From NCBI GenBank assembly GCA_023663225.1, contig JAMPHU010000002.1, forward strand, positions 62,001 to 126,000: a stretch of DNA of 64,000 nt. Direction: 5' to 3'. The DNA is from Candidatus Gastranaerophilales bacterium. Its GTDB lineage: Bacteria; Bacillota; Clostridia; Lachnospirales; Lachnospiraceae. Positions 42,996 through 59,335 of this stretch are shown here, one piece after another (positions within the stretch are counted from its first letter, which is position 1; each line of letters opens with the position of its first letter). Both the position numbers and the translations under genes were made by a program. The notes beneath the pieces were generated by a model. It searched no databases. It had not been told where the DNA came from and was given only the letters and a program-made list of their open reading frames with translations.

Positions 42996-43010
42996 AGGAC
43001 TTAAAATATG

Positions 43011-43061
43011 ATACCTTTTTATCAGATGCGAACAAACATTCTGATAAGGAGGTATTTTTTT
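43011..43061 (+). promoter_or_regulatory. 16-bp hairpin masking a ribosome site, followed by a T-run
   Basis: Positions 43011-43026 pair with 43040-43055 over all 16 positions, counting two G-U wobbles, around a 13-base loop. The right arm contains the AAGGAGG ribosome site (43046-43052) of the next ORF, and seven T residues (43055-43061) follow. It can act as the mfd terminator, as a translational lock on the 33-aa ORF, or both. Confidence 0.7.
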
Positions 43062-43163
43062 ATGAAAGGTTATACGACAGCAAGCGGTTATATGGGATTG
43101 GTGGACGGTACTTATATACTCTTCGCCAGCGAGGAAGAGTATAGAGAATATATGGAGGTGTAA
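43062..43163 (+). CDS. 33-aa small protein of unknown function
   Basis: A 34-codon ORF beginning MKGYTTASGYMGLVDGTYI and ending EEEYREYMEV, rich in Tyr, Gly and Glu. I recall similar short proteins with a GYMG-VDG-Y-LF pattern in related Clostridia, but no function. Support for coding is a full AAGGAGG site 8-9 bases upstream and balanced codon use. That site is buried in a 16-bp hairpin (43011-43055), so expression may need the hairpin to open. No separate promoter is clear; transcription would have to read through from mfd. Confidence 0.6.
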   Translation: MKGYTTASGYMGLVDGTYILFASEEEYREYMEV

Positions 43164-43187
43164 ACGACATTTTTTTAAAGTTGACGA

Positions 43188-43216
43188 TTGAGATATGGAA
43201 GAAAAGCTGTTATAAT
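43188..43216 (+). promoter_or_regulatory. Promoter of the coiled-coil/NYN two-gene operon
   Basis: TTGAGA (43188-43193), a 17-base spacer and perfect TATAAT (43211-43216) with an extended TGT before it. The start codon at 43251 follows GAGGAGG at 43237-43243. A TTGACG at 43181 is spaced too far from the -10 to be the -35 box. Confidence 0.75.
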
Positions 43217-43250
43217 AATCATATATACTTTATGGCGAGGAGGACTGATT

Positions 43251-43685
43251 ATGGCAAAGTTTATTATAACAGTAGAGGGAGGCAAAATAACGCAGACTCT
43301 AAATTTCCTGGATCGCAACGTTAAGGACAACAGGTATGTATATGAGAATGGCAATGAGTCGGGCATCATGGAAGATCCGGAAAAAATATATGCGGATATT
43401 CCAGAATGTGGGCGAATCACTGAGAAGTATAATGAGCTGCTTGAGACGGTGAATCTGGGGAAAAGCCAGATTACGGATGTGATGCGTCGGTTAAATGAGT
43501 TGGAGCGGGAGATGGATGCGTATGCGATTCCGGCGCCGCAAAATGAGCAGGAGCATGTTATAACCCTGAATGATGAGGATCTGAAGGTGTTGGCGGACAA
43601 ATGTGGCGTTTATCCCTTTGCCAATGACAAACATATTGAAGAGGTGATCAAGAAGCTGATCCATGATAAAGAGGATGGAGAGTGA
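43251..43685 (+). CDS. Hypothetical 144-aa protein upstream of a NYN-domain protein
   Basis: I do not recognise the family. The N-terminus MAKFIITVEGGKITQTLNFL looks like a short beta structure. Residues ~60-95 (ITEKYNELLETVNLGKSQI and onward) are helical and likely coiled-coil, and the C-terminus ends in a charged helix KHIEEVIKKLIHDKEDGE. There is no signal peptide or membrane helix. It has a strong promoter of its own, and the NYN-LOTUS gene starts 5 bp after its stop, so it is presumably a partner or regulator of that putative RNase. ATG 43251 is chosen for its GAGGAGG site. Confidence 0.85.
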   Translation: MAKFIITVEGGKITQTLNFLDRNVKDNRYVYENGNESGIMEDPEKIYADIPECGRITEKYNELLETVNLGKSQITDVMRRLNELEREMDAYAIPAPQNEQEHVITLNDEDLKVLADKCGVYPFANDKHIEEVIKKLIHDKEDGE

Positions 43686-43690
43686 TCACT

Positions 43691-44470
43691 ATGAACGAAA
43701 AGCAAATCGCAATATTGATTGACGGAGATAACATATCGCCAAAGTATGCCGCATATATCCGACAGGAAGCGGCAATGATGGGAAAGATTAAAATCTTTCG
43801 ATTATATGGCTCGATCAGTTCGCCGACTGTCAAATCATGGTATGGGGTTATGCCGAAATACGGGATCAGTCCGATTTTACAGATATCCTATTCGCAAAGA
43901 AAAAGTGTTGCGGATCAGGCATTGACGATCGATGCCATGGATATTTTGTATAGCGGAGAGATCAATACTATTTGCCTTGTGACGAGCGACAGTGATTTCA
44001 CAAAGCTGGCTTATCGCATAAAGGAATCCGGCAAAGAACTGATCGGAATGGGCGAACAAAAAACAAATGAATCGCTTGCGCAGGCTTGTGATGAGTTTAA
44101 AGTGCTTGACCTGATATATCAGGTTGAGAATAATACGGATTCCGAAGAGGCCGCGACAGTACAGGAAGAAGCGGAGGCTGCAGTAGAAGCTCCCGGCGAA
44201 GAGACTCTTGAAGAGGCAGTGAAAACAATCAGTATCCCTACAGAAGAGGAAATTATCGAAATTATTTTGAATTCCCTTGACGAGAGCTGGGAGAATCTTG
44301 CCAATGTTGGTTTTGCTCTGAACAGGCAGATATCAGGTTTTGACGCCCGAAATTACGGATACAAAAATATGACGCAATTAATAAAGAACCATGCGGAAGA
44401 ACTTGAACTGAAAGTGGAAACGGCAAAGGATGGGATCAATAGTATTGTCTATATAAAAAGGAAAAAATAG
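43691..44470 (+). CDS. NYN-domain (LabA/PIN-like) putative RNase with LOTUS/OST-HTH domain
   Basis: Protein of 259 residues. Residues 1-~145 are a NYN nuclease fold: IAILIDGDNISPKYAAYI with acidic residues near 11-13, RLYGSISSPTVKSWY, and VTSDSDFTKLAYRIKESG near 97. An acidic linker rich in Glu and Ala (~150-180) leads to a C-terminal LOTUS/OST-HTH-like domain (~183-255: EEIIEIILNSLDESWENLA and GYKNMTQLIKNHAE), which in other proteins binds RNA. RNA cleavage or processing is expected from the fold. ATG 43691 is preferred to a GTG at 43682. The 144-aa protein gene precedes it by 5 bp. Confidence 0.88.
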   Translation: MNEKQIAILIDGDNISPKYAAYIRQEAAMMGKIKIFRLYGSISSPTVKSWYGVMPKYGISPILQISYSQRKSVADQALTIDAMDILYSGEINTICLVTSDSDFTKLAYRIKESGKELIGMGEQKTNESLAQACDEFKVLDLIYQVENNTDSEEAATVQEEAEAAVEAPGEETLEEAVKTISIPTEEEIIEIILNSLDESWENLANVGFALNRQISGFDARNYGYKNMTQLIKNHAEELELKVETAKDGINSIVYIKRKK

Positions 44471-44475
44471 AATAC

Positions 44476-44503
44476 TTGAAAAAATCGGGCAACTTGATAT
44501 AAT
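44476..44503 (+). promoter_or_regulatory. Strong promoter of a free-standing micro-transcription unit
   Basis: TTGAAA (44476-44481), a 16-base spacer and perfect TATAAT (44498-44503) with an extended TGA before it. It begins only 6 bases after the NYN gene stop, and a strong terminator follows 129 bases downstream. Confidence 0.75.
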
Positions 44504-44518
44504 GGAGACATCAATAAG

Positions 44519-44599
44519 ATGGATCGATACATTGAATTGAAGGTATTTTTACAGATTTCAGGCGTTAACCTTGTAGAATTAGACAAGATCAAGGAATGA
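44519..44599 (+). CDS. 26-aa micro-ORF (or small RNA) with its own promoter and terminator
   Basis: An ORF of 27 codons starting MDRYIELKVFLQISG and ending VELDKIKE: an amphipathic helix-like peptide with no cysteine and alternating acidic and basic residues. GGAGA (44505-44509) lies 9 bases before the ATG. The ORF sits alone between an extended -10 promoter and an intrinsic terminator, giving an expected transcript of about 150 bases. Whether the product is the peptide or the RNA cannot be decided. I know no homologue. Confidence 0.5.
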   Translation: MDRYIELKVFLQISGVNLVELDKIKE

Positions 44600-44631
44600 A
44601 GATGCGATAAAGATTATTATGTGGCGAAAAG

Positions 44632-44662
44632 GCACCAGTCAGGAGTGGCTGGTGCTTTTTTT
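44632..44662 (+). terminator. Intrinsic terminator of the micro-transcription unit
   Basis: GCACCAGTCA (44632-44641) pairs with TGGCTGGTGC (44646-44655), one G-U wobble, with a GGAG tetraloop and seven T residues (44656-44662). This is a textbook intrinsic terminator. Confidence 0.9.
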
Positions 44663-44670
44663 AAAATAAT

Positions 44671-45755
44671 CGAAAAAACATTTGTTGACAGACGTATTTG
44701 ATCATGTTATTTTAGACATAAGAAGTATTGACATATATCTGAGAGTTTTGGCTCATCTACCGCAAGATTCCTTGCTCAATTACCTGACATACAATTGATA
44801 CCGCAGGGGATGTATGGCGGTTAGTATATTTTCCTGCGCTTATTTTACACAGGAGGATTTATGGGACAAAAAGATTTAACAGAGAAAAATTTTATAATGT
44901 ATCCGGATGTTTATGCAGATATCCTGAACGCTTTAGTGTTTGCTGGAAAAGAGACTGTACACACGGAAGATTTGATGCCAGCGCCTACGGAGAGTTTCTA
45001 CTATGTGGGACGGGGCAGACTGTCAAACCAGTTCAGCGATGCAGCAATGTACGAGATGCAGGAGGGGCAGATCCACACCCAGTACATTTTGGAGAATGAG
45101 GTGCAGCCAAAGTCCGGCACTGTGATGCGAAAAGCTGGGTATGAAGGCGCTATATACCGCAGACAGTTGAATCTCTCTTGGAAATATCCAGTGGTCAGTC
45201 TGTTACTTTATTGGGGTAATACTCCTTGGTCCTGTTCGACAAGCATACGGGAATTATTTCATGATCAGATCGGGGAGCGTGACATAGGAAAGTACATTAC
45301 CGAGGGGAGGCTGCATATATACTCCATGATGCATCTGCCCAAAGGCCTCCGAAACCGATTTAAAAGCGATATGCGATTTGTAGTAGATATCTTGGCAGAG
45401 GGTGCGGATTATCGGCCTACAGAGCAAAAGATTCTTCATCCGGAGGCATTGATGTTGATGCTGGGAGCTTTGACGAACGAAAGGAAATATGGGAGAATGC
45501 TCAAGTCTTATATAGGAGATGAGCGGAAAGGAGATCTGACAATGTGCGAATTTCTTGATGCATATGAGAAGAGAAGTATAGAAAAAGGTAAAAAGCAGGG
45601 TATAAAGCAAGGCATTACTCAGGGTGAGACACGCCTTGCCACCCTGAACCAAGCGCTGCTTAAGCAGAACCGGATCGATGACATCCGCAAGGCATCCAAC
45701 AGTAAGCGCTACCGTAATCAACTATATCGGGAGTTTGGGATACTTTAGTGTTGGT
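44671..45755 (+). repeat. Left copy of a 1.1-kb Rpn nuclease unit (inverted repeat)
   Basis: Aligns with 56428-57528 in opposite orientation, starting at CGA-AAAACATTTGTTGACA and ending just after the Rpn stop codon. The 190-bp upstream part is conserved too and contains a promoter, TTGACA (44685-44690), 17 bases, TATTTT (44708-44713) with TG before it. Sizes are 1085 and 1101 bases; the 16-base difference is one 12-base KQG unit plus a 4-base insertion. Confidence 0.85.
44861..45748 (+). CDS. Rpn family recombination-promoting nuclease / putative transposase
   Basis: Protein of 295 residues of the PD-(D/E)XK nuclease group often labelled Rpn or transposase_31-like. The N-terminal part has NFIMYPDVYADILNALVF, LSNQFSDAAMYEM and ILENEVQPKSG (the ExQ-type active-site strand). 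The C-terminal part carries MCEFLDAYEKRSIEKGKKQG and a basic repeat KQGIKQGITQG typical of these proteins. By analogy it nicks DNA and promotes RecA-independent recombination. A ~90% identical copy lies inverted at 56435-57334. The start is ATG 44861 behind CAGGAGG. Confidence 0.88.
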   Translation: MGQKDLTEKNFIMYPDVYADILNALVFAGKETVHTEDLMPAPTESFYYVGRGRLSNQFSDAAMYEMQEGQIHTQYILENEVQPKSGTVMRKAGYEGAIYRRQLNLSWKYPVVSLLLYWGNTPWSCSTSIRELFHDQIGERDIGKYITEGRLHIYSMMHLPKGLRNRFKSDMRFVVDILAEGADYRPTEQKILHPEALMLMLGALTNERKYGRMLKSYIGDERKGDLTMCEFLDAYEKRSIEKGKKQGIKQGITQGETRLATLNQALLKQNRIDDIRKASNSKRYRNQLYREFGIL

Positions 45756-45833
45756 TTTGGTTAGGTGCTACTTACCTGTTGTCACTCGTTTAGACGACGT
45801 CCAAAACAGGACTTACATCCTCTTATTATAAGC

Positions 45834-45937
45834 TATACTCACTAACGATTAGCTTTTCCTTTCCGTACAATGCATGTTGCCTAGTTATGCGACATGTACT
45901 ATGCGGAAATTGGAAAAGCTTAACGTTAGTGAGTATA
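45834..45937. repeat. 104-bp near-perfect palindrome (MITE-like) inserted in a glycosyltransferase gene
   Basis: The ends TATACTCACTAACG (45834-45847) and CGTTAGTGAGTATA (45924-45937) are perfect inverted repeats. The similarity continues inward through AGCTTTTCC and TTTCCG to CATGT/ACATG, leaving a ~13-base loop. The right arm supplies the last codons and stop of the adjacent glycosyltransferase fragment, so the element interrupts that gene. It encodes no protein. Confidence 0.65.
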
Positions 45938-46470
45938 AAAATCGTCAAATTGGTATAACTCTGTGTATATTCGAGCAACCATCTCTCTCATTTCCATCAT
46001 CGGTTTTGACGCTAAAATGATTTGATTCATATGCGCGAGTTTTTCACTTTTTAAACTTTTTATGGCGTCTTTAATCCCCTTAGGCGAAATATCATCGATA
46101 ACCAGTCCGGCCCCATTTGGAATGACATCCTTTGCTCCTACATTTTTGGTGACTATAACCGGTACGCCATAACTAAGCGCTTCAACTACCGTATAGGCAA
46201 AAGTTTCATACCATATACTCGGGGCTATCAATACATCGGTCTCATCAAAAATCTTCACATTCTGTCCTTAAATCATCAAGAGCCGCCTTGAGAAGAAAAA
46301 ACCCTTTGCCCCTCAGCCGGTCCTAAATAAGTGATTCTCGACTTATCATGGGTAAACTTCTTTTCTATGATCCGAAATACTCCCATGGGTAAGCGGAATT
46401 ATTACAGAATCAAAATCACCAAGATATTGTTCATACGCTTGTTTTGTTACTTCACTATCGAAAATTTCTT
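45926..46470 (-). pseudogene. Decayed family 4 glycosyltransferase (C-terminal half, several frameshifts)
   Basis: Reading the minus strand from 46470, homology passes through three frames: EIFDSEVTKQAYEQYLGDF and SVIIPLTHGSISDHRKEVYP, then RITYLGPAEGQRVF, then LKAALDDLRTECEDF, and finally FDETDVLIAPSIWYETFAY, VEALSYGVPVIVTKNVG. The last part is the GT-B C-terminal nucleotide-sugar site (E-x7-E region). It is therefore a dead family 4 transferase with at least two frameshifts, its 3' end replaced by the palindrome at 45834-45937 and its 5' end cut at the junction with the recombinase remnant. Only the final 110 codons remain open. Confidence 0.8.
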
Positions 46471-46472
46471 AA

Positions 46473-46712
46473 AGTCCTAATATTCAAGAAAATATAGGAA
46501 AATACCGGAAAATTCTGCAACAGTTGGGTCTTAGATATATTAATTTTCATTCTTTGCGGCACAGCTTTGCCACACTCTGTATTCAAAGTGGCTGTGATTA
46601 TCGCACGATAGCCGAGCTTTTGGGACATTCTTCTGTAAATACAACATTAAATGTTTATGTGCACAGTGGGATCGATCAAAAACGAAGCTGCCTGGAACAC
46701 TTGCGGCATTGA
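46473..46712 (+). pseudogene. Tyrosine recombinase remnant (C-terminal catalytic part)
   Basis: About 80 codons without a proper start: YRKILQQLGLRYINFHSLRH, SFATLCIQSGCDYRTIAELL, GHSSVNTTLNVYVHS. These show the HxLRH box, the LLGH box and the nucleophile tyrosine of phage-type integrases. The N-terminal arm-binding and core domains and the first catalytic arginine are missing. It abuts the dead glycosyltransferase at about 46471, marking a rearrangement point. A stem-loop terminator follows. It is probably the relic of the enzyme that brought part of this island next to tRNA-Ser. Confidence 0.8.
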
Positions 46713-46735
46713 ATTTCACCCAATATATATACAAA

Positions 46736-46789
46736 GAGGAGATGATGTCCCAATAGAGAAATGATCGGTCGGCACATCATCTCCGTTTT
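46736..46789 (+). terminator. Intrinsic terminator after the recombinase remnant
   Basis: GGAGATGATGT (46738-46748) pairs perfectly with ACATCATCTCC (46774-46784), followed by GTTTTTG. It may also stop transcripts of the minus-strand defence operon whose last gene ends at 46837. Confidence 0.75.
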
Positions 46790-46836
46790 TGTATTTTATC
46801 CTCATATACTTCGAGAAATTCACGATTTCAATATGT

Positions 46837-49311
46837 TTACTGCACTGTAAGATCTGAAATATAATCCTTAGGCAGATCCGGATACTGTTTCAAGATTGCT
46901 TCAGCCTTTCGGTGATACGTTTCGGCCTGTGCGAACTCTCCCTTTTTCTCTAAAATCAGTCCCAGCTCCCGATAGGTCAGTCCCAGCTCAAGTTCATAGA
47001 CTTGAGGCACTTCTGTTGCCAGTTGTCGCTGCACATTCATGGCTTCCACACAGTTCTGCTCAGCAGATGACATATGATCTTCCTCGGCCAACAAATGCGC
47101 CAAGGTTCTTTTCGCCAAGGCAATCGGTGCGGCATAAAATACAGATGTCAATGGGTCTTCGACAGAGATTTTCTCAAATTTCCGAATACACTCTTGCAGC
47201 ATTCCGCAGGCTTCTCCGCCTCTGTCAAAATGAGCCAGAGCATTTGCATAGTTGATTGTTGTGTAGAGATAACTTTTATTGATAGGGTATCTGTTATTTT
47301 TAATCAGTTCCTCTTGTTCTTGGAGAGTATCCTCCAATATGTCTAATGCCAGCTCCCAGTCGCGGCTTCTGCAGAGCAGATATCCGTAATTGGCATAAGC
47401 AATTGCCAGACGATAGGCGTTACCTAGATTTTTGCCTTTTTCATCGGAGGCTTTCAATTTTTTTCGAATAGAAATAGCTTCCTTATATAATGGCTGCGCC
47501 TTATCCGTTTTTCCTCGAATCGCCAGAAAATTGCCATAATCAATACAGGTGTAAGCCAAAGAAGGCTGCCACTTTTCCGGTAGAACTTCTCTATGCTTTT
47601 TTTTATTTTCAATAGCCTCTTGAAAATATTGCTCCGCCTCGCTGTCACGTCTCTCCTTTTCCAACAGAGTAGCATAATTTCCCTCCACGACAGCGACAGA
47701 TGCCTCATAAGTGCTCGATAATTCCGCAGTCAGTCTTTGACGGATCGCAATCGCTTCTTTATATAGTTTTTCGGCCTTCTGAAATTGATTTAAGTCTTTA
47801 CATAGGACTGCATAATTATTACATGTGGTAGAAAAATCAAAGGCATACTTGTAAAAATCTTTTCCCATTAGCGTTCTGCGGATATCAAGGGCTTTCTGCG
47901 CATAATACTGTGCCTGGCCGTACTCGTTTTTTCTACGGTAAATGACAGCCTGGCGATGATAGTTTGTCCCCAAATACACGTCATAGCGGACATCGTAATC
48001 ATGCTGTTGCGCTTGCAACGTCTGGATCTCTTCTTCAGAATGTATTAAAAAGCGTAAGCCTGTGTCAAATATATGTTTTTTCCAATAAACAGTGCCCAAC
48101 TGATTTAAGACTGCGATCATATTTTCTCTTTCTCTTAAAGTAGGTTGTTTTCTTGAGCGGAAAGCGGCCTGCGCTTCGTTGAGCGCCTTTTCGGAAGCGG
48201 AAAAATCTAATACCATTTCATAAAAAGACCCTAGCAGATACAAAATTTCACTTAAGCATACCGTAAAAGGATCCTGCCATACTGCAACGTAATTTATTAA
48301 GCGTTTGGTCAACAAAGTACCAGTTTTGTAATCACCTTTATTAAAAAGGAACCAAGCGTATTCATATAAGAGATCCAGTTCCACTTGCCATTCTTCCGCT
48401 ATTGGTACAACGTCGTGATATATTTTTTCTATTTCCTTCTGACTTTCTAGCTTTTGTTCCTTTATTCGAACAGTCTGTAGATTTGAAATCAAAAGTCGTT
48501 GCCCTGCAATATAAGAGCGTATTCGCTTCTTTGCATCCTGCGCGATTGCAATATTACTCTTCACGTTTATGCGCCATGCGTTATCCCGCAGATACGTATT
48601 TGCCGTCTCAATATCGCCTTCGCGCATGCAAATTTCGGCATAATACAAGGGAGAATCTTTGTCGGCGGCTTTTTTTCGGCCTTCCAATACCAGTTGGCAG
48701 CTTTTATATATAGTTTCATCCCTTTGATCCAAATCTTTGGACAGTTCTTCAAATTGATTGGCTGTCTGCAGTAGTTTTCTAAATAGATCGTCCCCCTGTT
48801 TTTCCACATAATCTGCCTTTAACTTTTGGACAGTTTTTTCCAAACTCGCCAATTCTGTCCAAGCCTGTCTGCGTTCCTTGTTTTGGCCGTAGACTGGTAC
48901 ATTTTGCAATTGCAAGATAACTCTGCCTTTTAGCTTTGCCTCGCCCTTTTCCATCAAAAGAACATTGCCGGATTCATCTGCTCTGGCAATTTCCATAAGC
49001 AGATCCCATTTGATAGCGTCTACATGAGAATATTCCTGCATCACCATTCCATTGACCTGTGAAAGACTTTCCGTGAATCTTTTAGCATCCGAAGTAGTAT
49101 CATTGTCGTCATTTGACTTGTGATAATAGAGATAGTCGCAAGAGCACAACTCTGCTTTCTTTGTTCTGTCCACAGAAGAGTCTGCTAATACCAATGTAAA
49201 ATGCATTTGGGGACATAGATTTTCCGTTTCAAGAAAAGTAAAAAACGCCTGCAGTTTCTCTTCATCATTTCTGTTTTCGTCAGATAAAATCATTCCTACT
49301 TTTATCACCAT
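46837..49311 (-). CDS. TPR-repeat protein with alpha/beta N-terminal domain, third gene of a Septu-like operon
   Basis: Protein of 824 residues. Residues 1-~150 look like an alpha/beta fold (KVGMILSDE, MHFTLVLAD, CDYLYYHKS, NVLLMEKGEAKLKGRVILQL), perhaps TIR/SEFIR-like or a related effector or sensor domain, but no diagnostic motif settles it. Residues ~150-260 are helical or coiled-coil. The remainder is an array of about ten tetratricopeptide repeats of the 42-residue kind (YAVLCKDLNQFQKAEKLYKE, YGNFLAIRGKTDKAQPLYKE). ATG 49311 follows GGAGG; ATG 49326 is possible. It starts 19 bp after the HNH gene in the same operon. A role as sensor or regulator of the ATPase-nuclease pair is inferred; the family is not one I can name. 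Confidence 0.85.
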   Translation of the reverse strand: MVIKVGMILSDENRNDEEKLQAFFTFLETENLCPQMHFTLVLADSSVDRTKKAELCSCDYLYYHKSNDDNDTTSDAKRFTESLSQVNGMVMQEYSHVDAIKWDLLMEIARADESGNVLLMEKGEAKLKGRVILQLQNVPVYGQNKERRQAWTELASLEKTVQKLKADYVEKQGDDLFRKLLQTANQFEELSKDLDQRDETIYKSCQLVLEGRKKAADKDSPLYYAEICMREGDIETANTYLRDNAWRINVKSNIAIAQDAKKRIRSYIAGQRLLISNLQTVRIKEQKLESQKEIEKIYHDVVPIAEEWQVELDLLYEYAWFLFNKGDYKTGTLLTKRLINYVAVWQDPFTVCLSEILYLLGSFYEMVLDFSASEKALNEAQAAFRSRKQPTLRERENMIAVLNQLGTVYWKKHIFDTGLRFLIHSEEEIQTLQAQQHDYDVRYDVYLGTNYHRQAVIYRRKNEYGQAQYYAQKALDIRRTLMGKDFYKYAFDFSTTCNNYAVLCKDLNQFQKAEKLYKEAIAIRQRLTAELSSTYEASVAVVEGNYATLLEKERRDSEAEQYFQEAIENKKKHREVLPEKWQPSLAYTCIDYGNFLAIRGKTDKAQPLYKEAISIRKKLKASDEKGKNLGNAYRLAIAYANYGYLLCRSRDWELALDILEDTLQEQEELIKNNRYPINKSYLYTTINYANALAHFDRGGEACGMLQECIRKFEKISVEDPLTSVFYAAPIALAKRTLAHLLAEEDHMSSAEQNCVEAMNVQRQLATEVPQVYELELGLTYRELGLILEKKGEFAQAETYHRKAEAILKQYPDLPKDYISDLTVQ

Positions 49312-49330
49312 CTTATGTACCTCCATATAC

Positions 49331-50503
49331 TTATTCTGCGATCATTTTTAAGATTTCTTCTCCAAAAATGTCCCGTATGATATCTCGCTTCAATTTGTTT
49401 AACGGCTCTTTCAAAATATCTTTCTCCACACTGACCTTGCCCAAGATCAATTGATACAATTCTTTTCTGGTCAACGATTTGCTTTGCAGAAAATCCTCAA
49501 CCCATTGACTGTTATATCTTTGCGACTGCTCATAAATTTCATTCGCAATATTTTCGTGACTGTCATAAAGCAATTCCAGTTGAAACATTTCTGCATAGGG
49601 TCGGATTTCCGGTTTCCTTTCCTCCAAATGAATTTTTGATGTGGAGGCCCGATCATATCGAAATCTGGCCATCTCATCTAAAGATACTTCATATGGACTT
49701 TTATCTTCTAATTGAAACTCATTCTTTCCCTTAAGTGAAGAATTGCAGAATTTACAGCAGGGAATCAAATTGTAAATGGACATTGAAAAATAAGGATACT
49801 TACTCCTGGGATAAAAATGATCAAGATCCGCCCTGACTTTTTTCTCCTCCGAATACATGGGTGTGATATACTGGCGATGACAATAGGGACAGGTTCTCAC
49901 CTTGCGATGATATTGTAGTAAATAGGCGTTCCATTCCGGAAAATGTTCCACGGAAATAAGCCCTTCTTTTATACAGGGGACTATTGTTTCATCCAGCAGC
50001 CGCAGTAATGACTTTTGGGTCAATTTCCCTTGAAATACATCCAACTTTATAGTAAAAGCTTTTCCTAATTCCTGATCACAATCATACAATTTTTCCTTTA
50101 TCCGATTCAAAAGAGTGGGATCTTGACAAGAAACTCTGGCAATCTTTAGATCTGCTTTCACTTCCTCCAATATTTGCTCTCCAATACAGCTTTCGCTAAA
50201 TGCATCATAGCCAAAAGCTTTGTCGATGGCTTCACGAAAATCCTTATCTTTTTGCAAAATATCCCCATAGTGATCTTGGATCACCTGCTGAATTTTTCGC
50301 AATTGATCAGGACGGCCGATCGCCAACTGCCTTTTGTAATACAAGCACAGGGAAAGCAATTTGATCTGTCTGTGAGTCTGCGGAAGTGTTCCCTTTTGCC
50401 TCTTTAATTCTGCCTTTAACTGTCTTAAATTCTCCCAAGCATGCTGACCAAAATAACGCTTATGTCGCTTTAATTCTTCTTTGGTAATGACTAATTCCGG
50501 CAT
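49331..50503 (-). CDS. HNH endonuclease, PtuB-like (Septu)
   Basis: Protein of 390 residues. A helical N-terminal half (~1-190) precedes an HNH zinc-finger nuclease domain: TCPYCHRQYI near residue 200, ADLDHFYPRSKYPYFS near 224 (catalytic DH), NLIPCCKFCNSSLKGKNEF near 246, so two CxxC knuckles frame the active site. This is the pattern of PtuB. The C-terminal ~100 residues (LLYDSHENIANEIYEQSQRY) are helical. It begins one base after the ATPase stop, with AGAGGA inside the ATPase's last codons, implying tight coupling. In Septu, the ATPase and HNH protein form a complex that degrades nucleic acid on phage infection. Confidence 0.88.
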   Translation of the reverse strand: MPELVITKEELKRHKRYFGQHAWENLRQLKAELKRQKGTLPQTHRQIKLLSLCLYYKRQLAIGRPDQLRKIQQVIQDHYGDILQKDKDFREAIDKAFGYDAFSESCIGEQILEEVKADLKIARVSCQDPTLLNRIKEKLYDCDQELGKAFTIKLDVFQGKLTQKSLLRLLDETIVPCIKEGLISVEHFPEWNAYLLQYHRKVRTCPYCHRQYITPMYSEEKKVRADLDHFYPRSKYPYFSMSIYNLIPCCKFCNSSLKGKNEFQLEDKSPYEVSLDEMARFRYDRASTSKIHLEERKPEIRPYAEMFQLELLYDSHENIANEIYEQSQRYNSQWVEDFLQSKSLTRKELYQLILGKVSVEKDILKEPLNKLKRDIIRDIFGEEILKMIAE

Positions 50504-50504
50504 A

Positions 50505-52478
50505 TTATTTTCCTCTTAATTCGTCTATTACATCAGCTACTCTGTCAAGAAATTCCGGTTCAAGTTTTTTTAAATTCTCCTGTACTGACAAAAATATGTT
50601 TTCTCCAATTTCCTGCTTGTTCAGATTAAGCCGTTCTTTTTGCTGATCGATCCTGCGTGTCAGCATTTTTCTGATAACGGGTTCCCCGATGCAGTCCGCC
50701 AACTTTTCAATTTCATACAAACGGGAGATATACGCCTGATCTGAACCACATTCTTCCAAATACTTTATTGCTTCCTCAATCTTTTGAACAGCGTAAGCAC
50801 CGATGATGCCCAGCTTTCCGCCCCCTAAAAACATCCCGTTTCGATACAAATCATAAATATTAGCGCCAAAGGTATTTTCCATATCCGCTTCCCCTTTTGG
50901 ATTGAGGAATACCACATTCCCTTTCAGAACGTCGGAAAGAATGATGGGGGAATGTGTTGCGATAATCAGTTGTATCTGATGAGCCGGATAACTATGGTTC
51001 AGAAAGCTCACTAAATTGGCTACATATTCCTGCTGCCATCTGGGATGATAGGACAGATCCGCCTCATCGATCAAAAATATCAATGAAGAAAAGTCCTGAA
51101 GCTTTTCCCGCAACGAAAAAATACGGGCATACAAATTAAACAGATTATACTCTCCGCTGCTCAAACCATTCCAGCGGAAGGTGAGATAGTCGTAACCCAA
51201 AGAAGTCGTGCGAATGTCTTTATAAATATCGATCAATATATTCTCATGCGAGCGTGCTTCCATGTAAAAACCGTCATTAACGACTCGAATGATACCCTGC
51301 TCTTTGCCCGAATACCTCTGATTCAATCGCCCCATCGCTTCCATCAGTCCATCCATATTGTCCAAATGCATGTCATGTATAAATTGCGCAACAAAATCCT
51401 CGCTGTTACCATGAGAATCATGCAGCTTTGTTCGAGATATCTGCTCAGAAATATGGTACTCCCAGAATTTTATTAAATCTGAGATCAATTTTTTTAATGT
51501 TTGAAAAGTACCCATACCGATTGAGTGAGGGAATATTAATAGAATAGCAGACATTAAAATGCCTCGATTGATCAAATAGCGAAATCGATCTTTCTCCTTT
51601 CGGAACCAAGAGTTGTATTGTTTCACAATATCTTTGCAGATATGAGCCGCGATCTCCTGCAACTGATCTATATTATAACCAACCCAAGAATCCGGTTCGT
51701 ACTGATAAATGCTACGCATATCCTCCGCAGTTATAGTGTGAAGATCATATTGGTAGACAAAGTTTAACATATCGTCTTCCCGAAAAATGAAATACAGCAC
51801 ATGAGGCAGAGGAAAGGATATCCATCTTTTGAAATCCTCATTTGAGTAAGCAGATATGAAATGTATCTGCCGGATCATATCCGCGTCTAGGTAAGCGCGC
51901 AGTTGCGTACCTACTTTTGCGTTCAAAAGGCCATTAAATGAAATGTCTTCTACTCCGTAAAAAGTATCCTGCATATTATATCGATCTCTATCAAAAATGT
52001 TGGAATGAAAAATCACAGCGGTGTGCGCCATCTCTTTGCAACGGAGAAAATTTCCGGAATCCATCTCCATTCTAGAGATGGTAAAATTTTGACTGTTTTT
52101 AACATTGACACCGTGATGGGCTTGAATACGGATCTGTTCCAAAGAAGTGTATACATATATATCGCCTGTCACATCGTCATCCGCTTTCAAAGCATAAATG
52201 CACGGAAGGGGATTAAAACCGCTCAGGCCTCCTTTATAAGGAAGAATTGTCATCAACAGTCTTAGCAAAGTAGTCTTACCTTGTCCGTTATTCCCAATAA
52301 TGCAGGAAATAGAGTTCACATTTTGTGTGTGATCAAACATTGCAGGATAGCGATCATTGTACTGACAATCTAAAATCTGTGTTTCTTGGTTAAAATGAAA
52401 ATGGTATTCATCGCTGAAATGAAATTCTCTATTATCGAAAAGACTGTATTTCTGAACCCACAGATATAATAACTTCAT
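50505..52478 (-). CDS. AAA/SMC-like ATPase, PtuA-like (Septu)
   Basis: Protein of 657 residues of the ABC/SMC-head ATPase group found in defence systems. Walker A IIGNNGQGKTTLLRLL is near residue 62, the signature WNGLSSGEYNLFNLYARI near 438, Walker B SLIFLIDEADLSYHPRW near 465, and the switch histidine IATHSPIILSD near 507. After these comes NTFGANIYDLYRNGMFLGGG, typical of ATPases paired with HNH nucleases. The long insert between Walker A and the signature (~350 residues) is helical, with no recognisable toprim. It is first in a three-gene minus-strand operon with its own promoter; GGGGGAT precedes the start. It is expected to sense infection and control the nuclease. Confidence 0.9.
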   Translation of the reverse strand: MKLLYLWVQKYSLFDNREFHFSDEYHFHFNQETQILDCQYNDRYPAMFDHTQNVNSISCIIGNNGQGKTTLLRLLMTILPYKGGLSGFNPLPCIYALKADDDVTGDIYVYTSLEQIRIQAHHGVNVKNSQNFTISRMEMDSGNFLRCKEMAHTAVIFHSNIFDRDRYNMQDTFYGVEDISFNGLLNAKVGTQLRAYLDADMIRQIHFISAYSNEDFKRWISFPLPHVLYFIFREDDMLNFVYQYDLHTITAEDMRSIYQYEPDSWVGYNIDQLQEIAAHICKDIVKQYNSWFRKEKDRFRYLINRGILMSAILLIFPHSIGMGTFQTLKKLISDLIKFWEYHISEQISRTKLHDSHGNSEDFVAQFIHDMHLDNMDGLMEAMGRLNQRYSGKEQGIIRVVNDGFYMEARSHENILIDIYKDIRTTSLGYDYLTFRWNGLSSGEYNLFNLYARIFSLREKLQDFSSLIFLIDEADLSYHPRWQQEYVANLVSFLNHSYPAHQIQLIIATHSPIILSDVLKGNVVFLNPKGEADMENTFGANIYDLYRNGMFLGGGKLGIIGAYAVQKIEEAIKYLEECGSDQAYISRLYEIEKLADCIGEPVIRKMLTRRIDQQKERLNLNKQEIGENIFLSVQENLKKLEPEFLDRVADVIDELRGK

Positions 52479-52556
52479 TTGTATCCCCCATTCCCCTGTT
52501 ATGTCCTTATGACAACGGCGGCTCTTTTTCTTTCGACTGATGCTTCCTTATTAACA

Positions 52557-52585
52557 AGGGTATCAAAATCTAAAGAATGTGTCAA
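52557..52585 (-). promoter_or_regulatory. Promoter of the Septu-like operon
   Basis: Minus-strand TTGACA (52585-52580), a 17-base spacer and TACCCT (52562-52557) preceded by TGA (extended -10), about 79 bp before the start codon. Just upstream, ATCGACAA occurs twice in direct repeat (52603 and 52613), a possible activator or repressor site. The rest of the 372-bp gap 52479-52850 is AT-rich; I see no gene in it. Confidence 0.65.
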
Positions 52586-52850
52586 TCAATGTTTTCTGAA
52601 AAATCGACAAACATCGACAAAATGTGATATGTACAGTTGCTCATTTATAGAAATTCAATATATGGTATGCAGGGCGATACTTTTACGTCACTTTTACAAT
52701 CTGAAATTTGTTTCATTTAGGAAATACTAGAAGCAGTATAAAAAGTCGATTTTATATTATTAATAATAAATATACATCTAATGAAAATAAAAGAGCTCTT
52801 CGTTTCTTTAAAATAAGGGTATTGTTAGGAATAGCATAGTTAGGAGAGGT

Positions 52851-53933
52851 ATGATACTAAGATCAATTAAGGTTCTACATTTGACAAATACGTTAGGATA
52901 TGGCGGCGTAGAGAAGATCGTTTATCAACTCTGCATGGGAACAAAAGATAAATTTCAAGAAGTTGTAGTGGTTTCTGGTGGTGGAGCTTTTGCTGAACGT
53001 TTACAGGAAAATGGAGTACAGCATTATATTATTCCTGATTTGAGTACGAAGAACCCAGTTGAAATTTACAAGATTATTAAGGAAATAAAGCATATTGTAA
53101 AGAAACACAATATTAACATGATACATTGTCATCATAGAATGGCTGTTTTATTTGCTAAAATAGCGTGTCACGGAATTAAAATAATCTACAACAACCACAC
53201 AATATATTCTGATAAAAGAATATTAAGTCATTTTGTGTTACAAAACGTAAATATAATAGCTGATGGTCAACAAGCAAAGGTAAATGTAGTAGATTATTTT
53301 AAGATAGCAGATGAAAAGATTACAATTATAAATAATGCGGTAGATGCAGATGATGGTTTTTTTAGTGAAGTTCCTGAAATAAGGAGAGAAAAAGATAAGG
53401 GCAATTTTATAGTACTTAATTCATCGAGACTACATCCGCAAAAAGGTATTTTCTACTATCTAGAGGCTGCAAAGATATTGAAAGAAAAGGGGTTTTCGAT
53501 ATCATTCTTTATCGTAGGTGATGGAGAACAACGTTTAAAAGTTGAGGAGTATATAAAAGTTAATAACTTAAAAGATTGTGTGTTTATGCTTGGTTTTAGA
53601 AAAGATATTAAAAATGTTATAAAACAAGTAGATGTGCTTGTTCTTACGTCAGTATATGAAGGCTTGCCGCTTACACCAATGGAAGCATTTTCTGTAAAGA
53701 GGTCAGTAATTGCTACAAATATTGATGGAACAAGAGAAGTGGTGGAGGATGGATATAATGGCTTACTTGCTGAACCATGTAATCCCGATTCGGTTGCACA
53801 AAAGATACAAATGCTGTTTGAGAACAGAGTACTTTTACAAAAATGTTCTGATGGAGCAATTGAAACTTATCGGTCAAAGTTTTGCTTAGGAGTCTTTATA
53901 AACGAGTATATTAAATACTATGAAAGTTTATGA
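52851..53933 (+). CDS. Family 4 (GT-B) glycosyltransferase
   Basis: Soluble transferase of 360 residues. The N-terminal Rossmann half has VLHLTNTLGYGGVEKIVYQL and MIHCHHRMAVLFAKI. The C-terminal half has LNSSRLHPQKGIFYYLEAAK, FFIVGDGEQRLKV and TSVYEGLPLTPMEAF, the E-x7-E motif of family 4 near residue 275. It adds a sugar from a nucleotide donor to a lipid-linked glycan. Base composition is visibly more AT-rich than the glycan genes at 1-28 kb, suggesting separate acquisition. It is intact, but everything else of its cluster is broken except the last gene. AGGAGAGG precedes the start. Confidence 0.92.
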   Translation: MILRSIKVLHLTNTLGYGGVEKIVYQLCMGTKDKFQEVVVVSGGGAFAERLQENGVQHYIIPDLSTKNPVEIYKIIKEIKHIVKKHNINMIHCHHRMAVLFAKIACHGIKIIYNNHTIYSDKRILSHFVLQNVNIIADGQQAKVNVVDYFKIADEKITIINNAVDADDGFFSEVPEIRREKDKGNFIVLNSSRLHPQKGIFYYLEAAKILKEKGFSISFFIVGDGEQRLKVEEYIKVNNLKDCVFMLGFRKDIKNVIKQVDVLVLTSVYEGLPLTPMEAFSVKRSVIATNIDGTREVVEDGYNGLLAEPCNPDSVAQKIQMLFENRVLLQKCSDGAIETYRSKFCLGVFINEYIKYYESL

Positions 53934-53964
53934 GGCACATTATTTATTGGAGTTTGTGATATTA

Positions 53965-54324
53965 ATGAGAAAAATAAATTATATGGAAATTCTATATTTC
54001 CTTGCAGGACTTGTTGCGACCTTTCAAGTCACACAGGTATTTGGAGTGACAATATTTACATTTATGGTGTTTTTGATAGTAGCACTATCAGTACTTTACT
54101 ATAAAAGAACAAAAATTAGCAAGAAGAGTATGGCTGTTTATGCATATTTTTTTATCGCAGGGATTGCTGAAATAGTTGGAGTAACAACTATTGATTTACC
54201 AAATAAAATGGAGTGGATAGTTCCATCACTAAAGAAATTTATATTATTATTTGTTTTGGTGTTACTTTATTCTTTTATAACTGATTTGAAAAAAAATAAT
54301 GTATGTGCTTCCAAAGGGTTATGA
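53965..54324 (+). pseudogene. 5' fragment of a Wzy/ligase-like membrane protein gene
   Basis: An open frame beginning MRKINYMEILYFLAGLVATF shows four hydrophobic helices, as at the start of polysaccharide polymerases, but at ~54300 it runs into the middle of an rfbH-like sequence and stops within a few codons. A polymerase normally needs 350-450 residues, so this is a truncated gene of ~110 codons. An ATG at 53920, overlapping the glycosyltransferase, is an alternative start. The junction indicates a deletion that fused it to the next fragment. Confidence 0.7.
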
Positions 54325-54811
54325 CCATAAATATACATATTCCCACTTTGGATATAATCTTAAGGTTACTGATATGCAGGCAGCAGTTGGTGTTGAACAG
54401 CTTAAGAAGTTCCCTTCTTTCATTGAAAAAAGAAAGCATAACTGGACAAGGTTGCATGCCGCGCTTGAAGATGTTCAAGATAAAATTATTCTTCCGGAAG
54501 CTGCAGAAAACAGCGTTCCTTCTTGGTTCGGCTTTCTAATCTCTGTTAGACCTGAAGCAGGATTAAATAGAAATGATGTAACAAGGTATATTGAAAGTAA
54601 GAATATTCAGACACGTCTTTTGTTCTCTGGAAATATTGTAAAGCAGCCTTGTTTTGATGGGATTAGAGATACTGAGGCATATAGAGTAGTAGGCAGCCTT
54701 GAAGTAAGTGATTTTATTGTACGCAATACATTTTGGGTAGGTGTTTATCCGGGAATGACGGATGCTATGATTGATTATATGGCACAAGTAATTAAAGAAT
54801 CTGTAAGTTAG
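54299..54811 (+). pseudogene. 3' fragment of an RfbH/AscC-like dehydrase gene
   Basis: Encodes 170 residues matching the C-terminal part of CDP-4-keto-6-deoxyglucose 3-dehydrase (E1 of 3,6-dideoxyhexose synthesis): PKGYDHKYTYSHFGYNLKVT, DMQAAVGVEQLKKFPSFIEK, SWFGFLISVRPEAG and VRNTFWVGVYPGMTD. The first ~265 residues of a normal 435-residue enzyme, including the cofactor-binding residues and iron-sulfur ligands, are missing. It starts at the deletion junction with the polymerase fragment and must be inactive alone. Confidence 0.82.
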
Positions 54812-54830
54812 AAGAGGAGATAATGATTGG

Positions 54831-55748
54831 ATGAAAAAAGCAATAGTTACTGGTGCAAATAGTTTTATAGGAACGGCATTATGCAATGAATTGTCCAATC
54901 AAGGTATTGAAGTTATTGCCGTTGTTCGAAGTGAAGAAGAAAATATTAGGAATATACAGTGTTTGAAAAATTTGAAGATTGTATATTGCGATTTGGCAAA
55001 TTTTAGTTCCTTATCGAATGTTATTGCTGACAGGGATGTAGACGTATTATATCATCTTGCTTGGGTTGGCAGCGCAGGCCCGTTAAGAGGTGATATAGAT
55101 GTACAGTTGAAGAACGTAAAATACACTTGTGATACTGTCAAAGCATGTGCTGATTTAAAGTGAAAGAAGTTTGTTTTTGCTTCAAGTATCATGGAATATG
55201 AGATTGAAGCATTGATGGCATCAGATAATACACCTGGAATGAATACGTTATATTGCAGTGCCAAAGTATCAGCCGATTACATGGCTCGTACTTTGGCGGG
55301 TTCATTAAATATAAGTTATATAAGAGCTGTTATATCTAATATATATGGCCCTGGAGAGACGAGTCCGAGACTGATTAATACTAGCCTAAGGAAATTACTT
55401 GCTGGTGAGCATTGTGCTTTTTCTTTAGGAGAACAGATGTATGATTTTATTTATATCACAGACGCGGCAAAGGCATTTGTTGCGATTGGTAAAAATGGTA
55501 TTGCTAATAGAACCTACTATGTTGGAAGCCGGAATCCGAAACCGTTAAAAGATTTTTTATGTGAAATGAGGGATCAGGTTGATCCTGCTATTGAGATAGG
55601 GCTTGGAGAAATACCTTTTAATGGAATTTCTTTGACTTACAAAGAGTTTGATATCAATTCAGTAAAAAAAGACACAGGTTTTATTCCAGAAATTCCATTT
55701 GATAAAGGTATCAGAAATACTATTGAATGGATAAGGGAGGTAGGGTAA
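54831..55748 (+). pseudogene. NAD(P)-dependent sugar reductase/epimerase with a single in-frame stop
   Basis: A complete short-chain dehydrogenase frame of 305 codons is interrupted once, by TGA at 55161-55163. The N-terminal part has TGANSFIGTALCNELS (NAD site) and YHLAWVGSAGP; the frame continues after the stop with KKFVFASSIMEYEIEAL, then YCSAKVSADYMARTLAG (Tyr-x3-Lys) and YDFIYITDAAKAF. A single base change such as TGC/TGT to TGA explains it. In context, between an RfbH remnant and a 3,5-epimerase gene, it is probably an AscF/RfbJ-type 4-reductase of a CDP-3,6-dideoxyhexose pathway. Confidence 0.82.
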
Positions 55749-56306
55749 ATGTCAGGTTTTAGTTTTACCGAATTAGAATTAAAAGGAGTATATTTAATTG
55801 AAAACTTTTCTGTCGATGATAATAGAGGCGGGTTCACGAAATGTTTTGAAAAAGATATCTATTCAAATGCAGGTATTAAATTTCAATTGAACGAAACATT
55901 TATTTCCGTTTCCGCAAAAAATGTTATTAGGGGGCTTCATTTCCAAACGCATAACCCACAAGCTAAGCTAGTATGTGTTGTGAAAGGAAAAGTATGGGAT
56001 GTCATTGTGGATTTGAGACCAGAAAGTCAAACTTATAAAAAATGGGTTAGTGCTGAACTAAGTGCTGAAAACCATAAGGCACTCTATATTCCAAGAGGAT
56101 TTGCGCATGGGTTTGCTTCCCTGGAGGACAGAACGGTAATGCTCTATCAATGTGATGGTGCATATGATAGGGAAACCGATACGGGCATATTGTTTTGTGA
56201 TCCAGAGATTGGTATTAATTGGCCAATAAGCAGAGATAACTCTGTACACAGTGAGAGAGATTTGCAGTTACCTATGTTGAAAGACTTTTGTTTATTATGG
56301 GATTAA
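55749..56306 (+). CDS. RfbC/AscE-like nucleotide-sugar 3,5-epimerase
   Basis: Intact cupin-fold epimerase of 185 residues: ENFSVDDNRGGFTKCFEKD, NVIRGLHFQTHNPQAKLVCV with the catalytic His, GKVWDVIVDLRPES and IPRGFAHGFASLEDRT. It is similar in design to the rfbC product at 12535 but diverged and AT-rich. Lying after RfbH-like and reductase remnants, it is more likely the epimerase of CDP-ascarylose synthesis (AscE) than a dTDP-rhamnose enzyme. GGGAGG precedes the start, overlapping the end of the broken gene. With its pathway partners dead, it may have no substrate. Confidence 0.85.
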   Translation: MSGFSFTELELKGVYLIENFSVDDNRGGFTKCFEKDIYSNAGIKFQLNETFISVSAKNVIRGLHFQTHNPQAKLVCVVKGKVWDVIVDLRPESQTYKKWVSAELSAENHKALYIPRGFAHGFASLEDRTVMLYQCDGAYDRETDTGILFCDPEIGINWPISRDNSVHSERDLQLPMLKDFCLLWD

Positions 56307-56427
56307 TGTTTTTTATAGGGAGGATTGTGCAAAGCATGGGAAATAGAAAAAGGGCGATTTCATTGGGAATTAATTTTATTGAATAAAAAGCTGCCGTTGT
56401 CGCAATTGATTGTGATAATTAGGAAGA

Positions 56428-57528
56428 ATCAACGCTAAAGTATCCCAAACTCCCGATATAGCTGATTGCGGTAGCGCTTGTTGCCGGATGCCTTGCGGAT
56501 GTCATCGATCCGGTCCTGCTTAAGCAACGCTTGGTTCAGGGTGGCAAAGCGTGTTTCGCCCTGAGTAATGCCTTGCTTTATACCTTGTTTCATGCCCTGC
56601 TTTTTCCCTTTTTCTATACTTCTCTTCTCATATGCATCAAGAAATTCGCACATTGTCAGTTCTCCCTTCCGTTCATCTCCAATATAAGTTTTAAGCATTC
56701 TCCCATATTTCCTGTCGTTTGTCAAAGCACTCAGCATCAACATCAATGCCTCCGGATGAAGGATCTTTTGCTCTGTAGGCCGATAATTTACACCCTCTGC
56801 CAAGATATCTACTACAAATCGCATATCGCTTTTAAACAGATTCCGGAGGCATTTGGGCAGATGCATCATGGAGTATATGTGCAGTCTCTCCTCAGCGATG
56901 TATTTTTCTATGCCACGTTCCTCGATCTGATCCTGAAATAATTCCCGTATGCTTGTCGGACAGGACCAAGGAATATTACCCCAATAAAGCAACAGACTGA
57001 CTATTGGATATTTCCAAGGAAGACTCAACTGTCTGTGGTATATAGCGCCTTCATACCCAGCTTTGCGTATCACGGTGCCGGACTTTGGCTGCACCTCATT
57101 CTCCAAAATATACTGGGTGTGGATCTGCCCCTCCCGCATCTCGTACATTGCTGCATCGCTAAATTGGTTTGACAGTTTTCCCCGTCCCACATAGTAGAAA
57201 CTCTCCGTGGGCGCTGGCATCAAATCCTCCGTGTGGACAGTCTCTCTTCCGGCAAATACTAAAGCGTTTAGGATATCGGCATAAACATCCGGATACATTA
57301 TAAAATTTTTTCCTGTTAGGTCTTTTTGTCCCATAAATCCTCCTGTGTAAAATAAGCGCAGGAGAATATACCAACCGCCATCCATCCCCTGCGGTGTCAA
57401 TTGTGTACCAGGTAATTGAGCAAGGAAGGAATCTTGCGATAGACGAGCCAAAACTCTCAGATATATGTCAGTACTTCTTACGTTTAAAATAACATGATCA
57501 GATGCGTTTGTCAACAAATGTTTTATCG
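56428..57528 (-). repeat. Right copy of the 1.1-kb Rpn nuclease unit (inverted)
   Basis: Same unit as 44671-45755, opposite orientation. Its outer end, CGATAAAACATTTGTTGACA read on the minus strand, lies inside the reading frame 57498-57989 and provides that frame's last codons, so the unit was inserted there. The promoter hexamers TTGACA and TATTTT are conserved with the left copy. Confidence 0.85.
56435..57334 (-). CDS. Rpn family nuclease / putative transposase, second copy
   Basis: Protein of 299 residues, about 90% identical to the product of 44861-45748, with the same NFIMYPDVYADILNALVF start region, ENEVQPKSG nuclease strand and MCEFLDAYEKRSIEKGKKQG tail. It has one extra KQG unit (KQGMKQGIKQGITQG), so the basic repeat is length-variable. 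Substitutions are scattered and the frame is intact, suggesting both copies are under selection. CAGGAGG precedes the ATG; an in-frame extension to 57517 is open only because of a 4-base insertion and runs over the promoter. Confidence 0.88.
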   Translation of the reverse strand: MGQKDLTGKNFIMYPDVYADILNALVFAGRETVHTEDLMPAPTESFYYVGRGKLSNQFSDAAMYEMREGQIHTQYILENEVQPKSGTVIRKAGYEGAIYHRQLSLPWKYPIVSLLLYWGNIPWSCPTSIRELFQDQIEERGIEKYIAEERLHIYSMMHLPKCLRNLFKSDMRFVVDILAEGVNYRPTEQKILHPEALMLMLSALTNDRKYGRMLKTYIGDERKGELTMCEFLDAYEKRSIEKGKKQGMKQGIKQGITQGETRFATLNQALLKQDRIDDIRKASGNKRYRNQLYREFGIL

Positions 57529-57989
57529 TTAATTCCGTAGATCCCTAATTCTCTCTCCAGATCCCGAAGCATCCGGCCCAATGGTTTTTTCTTCATGTTC
57601 TCCTTTGTAATCTCAGGTCCAAACACCATAGCCTTTATGTCCTGCTCAGTCAGTCCGGCCTTGCCCAGCACTTTATTGAATTCCTCCAACTGTGTTTCCT
57701 GGTACATTTGGTGTTTATCGAGCAATTCATTTATGTCCGTTTCATGAATCTCATAAGCGGTTTCTATGTGCATCGCTTCCAAAGTTCTTGATATTTTTGA
57801 CACATCTTCCCCGTCTATTCCTTGACCGTTTTCCATTCGTATTGCCTGGTTTCCCGTAAATTGTTGAGAAAAATATGCTATTTTACAAAAATCTATATTG
57901 CGATATATGCCTGTCTCATAAGGCGACGCGCCAGTGGAAGACAAATTGGCAATGTTTGTCAGAAAGTAGTATTCTTGTCCGAAACGCAA
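57498..57989 (-). pseudogene. Hypothetical protein truncated by the Rpn unit
   Basis: An open frame of up to 163 codons with a TTG start at 57989; ATG at 57836 (MENGQGIDGEDVSKI) is a more conservative start. The product is charged and helical (DINELLDKHQMYQETQLEEF, LGRMLRDLERELGIYG) with no recognised domain. Its final ten codons lie within the inserted Rpn unit, so the original C-terminus is lost. It follows the XRE gene, from which it is separated by a hairpin terminator, so it may be only a remnant of an Rpn- or phage-type gene. Confidence 0.4.
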
Positions 57990-58025
57990 AACAACAAGAC
58001 ACCGCCCAAACGGAGCCGTGTCTTG
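57988..58025 (-). terminator. Terminator of the second tandem-HTH gene
   Basis: CAAGACAC and GTGTCTTG (58002-57995 and 58025-58018) form an 8-bp stem with further inner pairing. On the minus strand it is followed by TTGTTTT. It lies 26 bases after the regulator's stop. Confidence 0.65.
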
Positions 58026-58050
58026 CTGTCCTGAATGATCTGCCGCAATA

Positions 58051-58758: not shown

Positions 58759-58784
58759 GGCATTTCTCTCCTTTCTGTAGACTT

Positions 58785-58808
58785 ATTATACGTCATAAAA
58801 TGTCGTAT
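58785..58808 (-). promoter_or_regulatory. Promoter/operator of the second tandem-HTH gene
   Basis: Minus-strand TATAAT at 58790-58785. Overlapping and upstream lies an inverted repeat with 9-bp arms ATACGTCAT (58788-58796) and ATGTCGTAT (58800-58808), one mismatch, 3-base centre. The core CGTATAATA is shared with the paralogue's promoter at 6246-6254. No good -35 box is visible. Confidence 0.5.
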
Positions 58809-59224: not shown

Positions 59225-59335
59225 CTATCTTATCCATGGCGCAACTAAGCTATATTTTATAGGAAAATTCTCTCTTTGGCAACCCTAACCTTCAAAAAAA
59301 CCATAAAAAGTTTCCGGCAATGTTTGAATTATAAA

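Follow-up and report, generated by a model that had tools for sequence, protein, structure and literature searches.

An ATPase–HNH gene pair of the PDC-M62 branch followed by a tetratricopeptide-repeat gene in a patchy accessory island

We analysed a 64,000-nucleotide stretch of DNA (hereafter the window; contig JAMPHU010000002.1, positions 62,001–126,000, assembly GCA_023663225.1), which carries on its minus strand an ATPase gene, an HNH nuclease gene and a gene encoding a tetratricopeptide-repeat (TPR) protein. Coordinates given without a locus prefix are window positions. The initial annotation had described a tightly packed trio of genes, interpreted as a Septu-like defence operon with the third gene acting as sensor or regulator. 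The packing was borne out. The ATPase and HNH genes are one base apart, and 19 bases separate the HNH stop codon from the likely ATG of the TPR gene, with the sequence GGAGG inside this gap. The genes and the signals around them, the latter read from the sequence, are as follows:

52557..52585, minus strand: promoter-like site, TTGACA (52585), 17 nt, TACCCT (52562), with TG before TACCCT.
50505..52478, minus strand: ATPase open reading frame (ORF), 657 amino acids (aa), ABC/OLD type, PtuA superfamily, best family PDC-M62A.
49331..50503, minus strand: HNH nuclease ORF, 390 aa, PtuB superfamily, best family PDC-M62B.
49320..49324, minus strand: GGAGG resembling a ribosome-binding site (RBS) of the TPR gene.
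46837..49326, minus strand: TPR protein ORF (third gene), 829 aa; with the likely start at ATG 49311, 824 aa.
46738..46784, minus strand: possible terminator hairpin 3' of the TPR gene.

The motifs named in the initial annotation were found in both proteins of the pair. The ATPase contains GNNGQGKTT (Walker A) at residue 62, LSSGE at 439, LIFLIDEAD (Walker B) at 466 and ATHSP at 507; the HNH protein contains the zinc-knuckle motifs CPYC at residue 205 and CKFC at 250, with DLDHF at 226 and NLIP at 245. The key residues of the zinc knuckle and the HNH motif are invariant across 40 aligned HNH proteins (that of the window and 39 picked from the 80 loci described below), and those of the ATPase motifs across 30 aligned ATPases (the window and 29 others), so the motifs are more than chance resemblances. 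The signals around the operon are less clear. The promoter proposed upstream of the ATPase gene has its hexamers, a 17-nt spacer and the TG, but it is missing from the output of the automatic promoter scan, which found 18 promoter-like sites, no more than in shuffled sequences (mean 20.1). Therefore, we rate this promoter as plausible only. The hairpin after the TPR gene has a perfect 11-bp stem with 25 nt between its arms. It is absent from the list of the automatic terminator scan, and its fold (the stretch minus its last two bases) is mildly better than that of shuffled sequences (z −1.5, 17 of 200 as good).

Using PADLOC, we showed that PDC-M62A is the best family for the ATPase (1.2e-77, spanning residues 1–640 of 657) and PDC-M62B the best for the HNH protein (2.8e-53, best stretch residues 189–378, with a second model spanning 41–285). 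The A and B genes stand next to each other, as in a PDC-M62 pair. The matches to PtuA1 (1e-20) and PtuB1 (3.6e-7) are partial, that to PtuB1 covering the HNH core alone. The curated NCBIfam cut-offs for the retron Ec78 proteins were not reached by either protein (PtuA, 64.9 bits against 500; PtuB, 14.3 against 150). When a profile of 30 ATPases was compared with the PDB, the top match was retron Ec78 PtuA (8.8e-23), with Septu PtuA (8ee4, 5.9e-18) and AriA lower in the list. A profile of 40 HNH proteins gave a weak match to the TIGR02646 protein 9n69_F (0.0039) and two other matches, both to designed proteins. Because of these PADLOC, NCBIfam and PDB results, the pair is placed by its sequence in the PtuAB superfamily, in the PDC-M62 branch; it is a relative of Septu and not a textbook Septu system. 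Thus, the Septu-like reading stands as far as an ATPase–HNH pair of this superfamily in an accessory island is concerned, but the family that fits is PDC-M62 and not PtuA1/PtuB1. PADLOC lists PDC-M62 as a candidate phage defence system. In a survey of Bacillus cereus, 203 PADLOC calls of PDC-M62 were duplicates of Septu calls, according to the available part of PMC11811056.

We compared the operon with known systems. With Septu it shares an ABC/OLD ATPase and an HNH nuclease: the window ATPase is PtuA-like and carries the Walker A, signature and Walker B motifs of ABC proteins, and the ATPase profile matches solved PtuA structures. The difference lies in the PtuA1/PtuB1 and NCBIfam scores given above. 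With PDC-M62 it shares the best-matching family of both proteins, and in the relatives the genes are arranged in this order and just as closely spaced; only the A and B models came up in the PADLOC scan, whereas the window adds a TPR gene. Type I-A retrons (Ec78/Eco7) combine PtuAB with a reverse transcriptase (RT). We found no RT among the seven neighbouring window proteins scanned with Pfam, a set smaller than all ORFs, and no retron RNA in Rfam (window 43000–60500, gathering scores), where a single tRNA was the only match. The earlier statement that no RT is nearby thus holds for these seven proteins, and the retron reading was rejected; the extra gene here encodes a TPR protein. A three-gene operon around a PtuA-like ATPase has been described as ptuXYZ, which in the accessible text of PMC11980606 consists of a DUF262 protein, the PtuA-like ATPase and a BECR-fold protein. 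Both its nuclease and its third gene differ from those of the window operon.

The pair itself is a known kind of module, ordinary in this sense, and it probably serves in defence against viruses. In Septu EcB88, the Walker A and B motifs of PtuA and the H and N residues of PtuB are required, and tRNA-Tyr is cleaved during infection (excerpt of PMC13096335). The retron-Eco7 PtuAB is toxic unless neutralised by the RT and multicopy single-stranded DNA (msDNA); Eco4 PtuAB seemingly does not target tRNA, and one Septu system is reported to target DNA (excerpt of PMC11555353). By analogy with Septu EcB88 and retron PtuAB, the window ATPase would oligomerise, bind the HNH nuclease and restrain it. 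An infection that disturbs the ATPase would free the nuclease to cut tRNA or DNA, and this release would halt the growth of the infected cell.

To see how the pair is distributed, we used a genome scan in which 476 HNH relatives were confirmed and 80 loci (numbered with L) were kept. The ATPase gene lies less than 100 bp upstream of the HNH gene in 71 of the 80 kept loci. In 57 of these 71 adjacent pairs the two genes overlap, 24 times by 4 bases. With the window's own genome included, the pair was found in 5 of 299 genomes of the family (at 1e-10), 8 of 138 of the genus (at 1e-6) and 8 of 274 of the class (at 1e-20); on plasmids, HNH matches occurred in 34 records. The pair is thus common among the kept HNH loci yet uncommon within the sampled genomes. 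In L016, the closest relative, both genes of the pair are intact (HNH 48% identity, ATPase 2e-165). L017 (HNH 46% identity) has a truncated ATPase frame that follows a transposase-like gene, and the same-genus L137, at a contig end, shows 45% HNH identity over the last 86 residues.

We then assessed whether the TPR gene is conserved beside the pair. For this purpose, we assembled 106 HNH loci: the 80 scan loci, 5 from the family, 4 from the genus, 7 from the class and 10 from viral contigs (the first ten of at least 27). All of them have an HNH match and 98 an ATPase-profile match, with 1.67 Mb in total; three weaker same-genus matches and the plasmid matches lie outside this set. A seven-sequence TPR profile gave no match in the 106 loci, including the three nearest pairs, L016, L017 and L137. 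The profile did pick up L185, a positive control from outside the profile-building set, at 1.4e-87. With the window TPR protein as the query, no ORF was matched in the 80 scan loci. What follows the HNH gene is a fructosamine-kinase gene (Pfam) in L016, with no TPR gene in the stretch examined, and a thioredoxin-like gene (by eye) in L137, likewise without a TPR gene; L017 has no TPR gene either. Conversely, the HNH profile found no partner in any of the six loci that hold TPR relatives, two of which (L105 and L106) are short contigs; in L185 a divergent small ATP-binding gene adjoins. In three plasmid HNH neighbourhoods, judged by annotation, no gene was annotated as TPR, and a literature search that covered few subscription papers returned nothing joining PtuA/PtuB or Septu with TPR or tetratricopeptide. 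In the loci examined, no TPR gene conserved with the pair was found, and neither was the three-gene order that the initial annotation had proposed to look for in other genomes. Its idea of a third component is therefore not supported by conservation; judged from the sequences, the TPR protein may possibly still act as one.

The missing conservation speaks against the TPR protein being essential, and the operon layout speaks for some link with the pair. The explanation that we prefer, with a confidence a little above even, is a self-sufficient two-gene PDC-M62 module with a lineage-specific, dispensable TPR add-on. The TPR gene would have joined the operon recently, at its 3' end, and would be co-transcribed with the pair, possibly as a regulator. 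Its shortened N-terminal head probably lost any enzymatic core; the remaining TPR scaffold could be a binding platform for a ligand or for the pair and would be dispensable for the core function.

This head is the part that the initial annotation could not name. The third protein matches TPR families in Pfam (TPR_12, 3.9e-20), and in BLASTP it is 22–23% identical over about 750 aligned positions to the proteins of L104 and L107; part of this likeness is general TPR resemblance. The alignment with these two proteins delimits the following feature:

48997..49311, minus strand: probable shortened DUF4062/TIR-like N-terminal domain, first ~105 residues of the TPR protein.

The window N-terminus itself had no direct match in Pfam. 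The L107 N-terminus is 34% identical (2e-23) to the stand-alone protein of L105, which matches Pfam DUF4062 with 31.0 bits (cut-off 24.7; 3e-7) and TIR_2 (0.0014) and NPHP3 (0.0065) below the Pfam cut-offs. The L107 N-terminus reaches 13.8 bits against DUF4062 (0.069), under the cut-off of 24.7. The profile comparison of the window N-terminus with DUF4062 proteins was weak (33% probability, 44% without the window sequence). In the alignment with L104 and L107, the window copy is without a block of some 30–40 residues in the N-terminal domain, and a genome search splits the window TPR match near the same place. Through this chain of partly weak sequence links, the head can be given a name, probably that of a shortened DUF4062/TIR-like domain. 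A PDB sequence search with the N-terminus returned nothing meaningful.

The proteins of L104 and L107 share the build, the middle region and the TPRs with the window protein; the difference is that no ATPase–HNH pair adjoins them and that the window copy misses a stretch of the N-terminal domain. The L010 protein combines the same middle region and TPRs with a kinase-like head (kinase match below the Pfam cut-off), which suggests, at the level of sequence, that heads are exchanged on a shared scaffold. Relatives of the TPR protein are rare. Beyond the window's own genome, they were found in 1 of 298 genomes of the family, 4 of 391 of the order and 1 of 397 in a phylum sample. The four order-level relatives all belong to one family, and a further search there returned the same 4 among 48 genomes. 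Two order-level matches, G083 and G326, were dropped as false, since they fall inside a gene of 877–878 aa that resembles pyruvate phosphate dikinase. A tblastn search of plasmids and phages with the TPR N-terminal region gave no match, viral contigs searched with the TPR protein and its profile held no relative, and PHROGs has no family for the protein.

Several observations weigh against the reading of a dispensable add-on. A single operon is suggested, as far as sequence can tell, by the 19-bp spacing, the good RBS, the uninterrupted frame of 824 codons and a possible terminator that is seen behind the TPR gene and not earlier; partners in an operon are often functionally linked. The search also has its limits, since many relatives lie outside the 106 loci (80 of the 476 confirmed relatives were kept) and 14 of these loci span less than 10 kb. 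At L139:6568-8651, a same-genus pair has a DUF4062 gene 515 bp downstream, the sole match to the DUF4062 profile in the 106 loci. Finally, large, tightly linked sensor-type neighbours occur at some other pairs, and one of them recurs.

These neighbours were surveyed in the 80 loci; in 16 of them a gene of at least 450 aa, reading in the direction of the pair, lies no more than 120 bp from it. The classes come mostly from Pfam, with which 74 of 77 neighbour ORFs were scanned (a transposase-like gene and two ATPases were left out); as the matches listed cover 25 of 170 families, isolated TPR matches may lie among the remainder. According to Pfam, the neighbours include CHAT-NACHT (L050), WD40-repeat (L069) and nSTAND (L070) proteins, these STAND/repeat partners lying 13–106 bp from the pair, as well as HATPase (L059, L073) and AAA/SMC-like (L063, L088) proteins, a type I restriction gene (L055) and BrxL (L093). 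By eye, we recognised an ABC transporter (L058), specificity subunits (L057, L060, L068), a caspase-like protein (L042) and the transposase of L017. A HATPase-like gene of ~800 aa is present at L056:5190-7685, L059:5274-7661 and L073:10653-13127, within 11 bp of the pair, upstream in two loci and downstream in one. The L056 neighbour has no Pfam match and is 54% identical to that of L059, and the L073 neighbour is 53% identical to that of L059; because of this identity, we count them as one recurrent third gene.

A genuine three-gene Septu-like subtype, in which the TPR protein serves as sensor or antitoxin-like regulator in place of the RT and msDNA, is possible and in our view rather unlikely. 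The tight operon, the STAND/repeat partners of L050, L069 and L070, the recurrent HATPase-like gene and the DUF4062 gene of L139 are consistent with it, and retron PtuAB depends on a restraining partner, according to the part of PMC11555353 available. Against this stand the TPR profile without a match in the 106 loci, the three nearest pairs without a TPR gene, the TPR relatives that exist without the pair and the shortening of the N-terminal domain. A broader form of the idea, which we consider unlikely and put forward only tentatively, is that PDC-M62 pairs take up large proteins of various kinds as exchangeable sensors or antitoxins, a protein counterpart of retron msDNA. The window would then hold the first TPR version, with its reduced DUF4062/TIR-like head, alongside the CHAT-NACHT, WD40, STAND and recurrent HATPase-like versions elsewhere. 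The neighbour pattern fits swappable partners and plain clustering of defence genes equally. If the TPR protein does gate the pair, the locus would offer a simple genetic handle on PtuAB restraint without a retron and on sensing, and it would favour the idea that sensors are exchanged around a constant effector pair. If the TPR protein does not gate the pair, the locus still documents PDC-M62 turnover at one site.

The same survey bears on the role of the pair. A function in another conflict, for example against plasmids or as a backup effector of restriction systems instead of phage defence, would agree with the relatives next to the type I restriction gene and BrxL and with the Methylase_S genes in three members of the neighbour set (among the matches listed, 25 of 170 Pfam families). 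HNH proteins linked to OLD ABC-ATPases have been described beside BREX, as an excerpt of PMC12839542 reports. We consider this function improbable, as no restriction or BREX gene was found among the seven window neighbours scanned and the closest families are defence candidates.

The operon lies in a patchy island that contains glycosyltransferase and aminotransferase fragments (Pfam) and an epimerase fragment (by eye). Three features of the surroundings were mapped:

44665..45756, plus strand: left inverted Rpn/YhgA-like copy, ORF 44861-45748.
56427..57534, minus strand: right inverted Rpn/YhgA-like copy, ORF 56435-57517.
57498..57989, minus strand: dead remnant of a second, different ATPase–HNH module, 163-aa ORF, just outside the right Rpn-like copy.

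The initial annotation had placed the operon in a decayed island flanked by Rpn repeats and a tRNA. Two 1.1-kb copies, inverted, 90% identical over 1106 aligned positions and about 10.7 kb apart, do bracket the island, and a tRNA-Ser is present nearby, but the Rpn/YhgA matches of both copies fall below the curated cut-offs. Such inverted copies could promote inversion or mark the island borders. The left flank was matched in 135 of 138 genus genomes, mostly in its first 1.2–1.7 kb, and the contig is therefore probably part of the host chromosome.

The first 73 residues of the remnant are 47% identical to the ATPase of the same-genus L138, and 86 residues near its end are 67% identical to the C-terminal end of the L138 HNH protein. 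PDC-M62 is the best family match of the L138 pair. Because the parts between the ATPase piece and the HNH end are gone, a second module of PDC-M62 type has apparently died here. Thus, by sequence comparison, modules have turned over at one site, where one PDC-M62 module is intact and one is dead. This island, with its fragments and dead module, and the lack of a conserved link between the pair and the TPR gene in the loci examined, would also suit an unrelated passenger that came to lie behind the HNH gene and is co-transcribed by chance. This is a form of the explanation that we prefer, and our confidence in the two overlaps; taken by itself, chance placement is possible, but our confidence in it stays well short of even. 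The long intact frame with its well-placed RBS and the similar GC content of the three genes (ATPase 0.39, HNH 0.39, TPR 0.41) speak against it.

Two further observations concern the island. An element of ~105 bp at about 45832–45939 of the window recurs at 84–92% identity in several genomes of the same genus. A partial 40-bp direct repeat (73%) flanks the island at 43251–43290 and 59065–59104.

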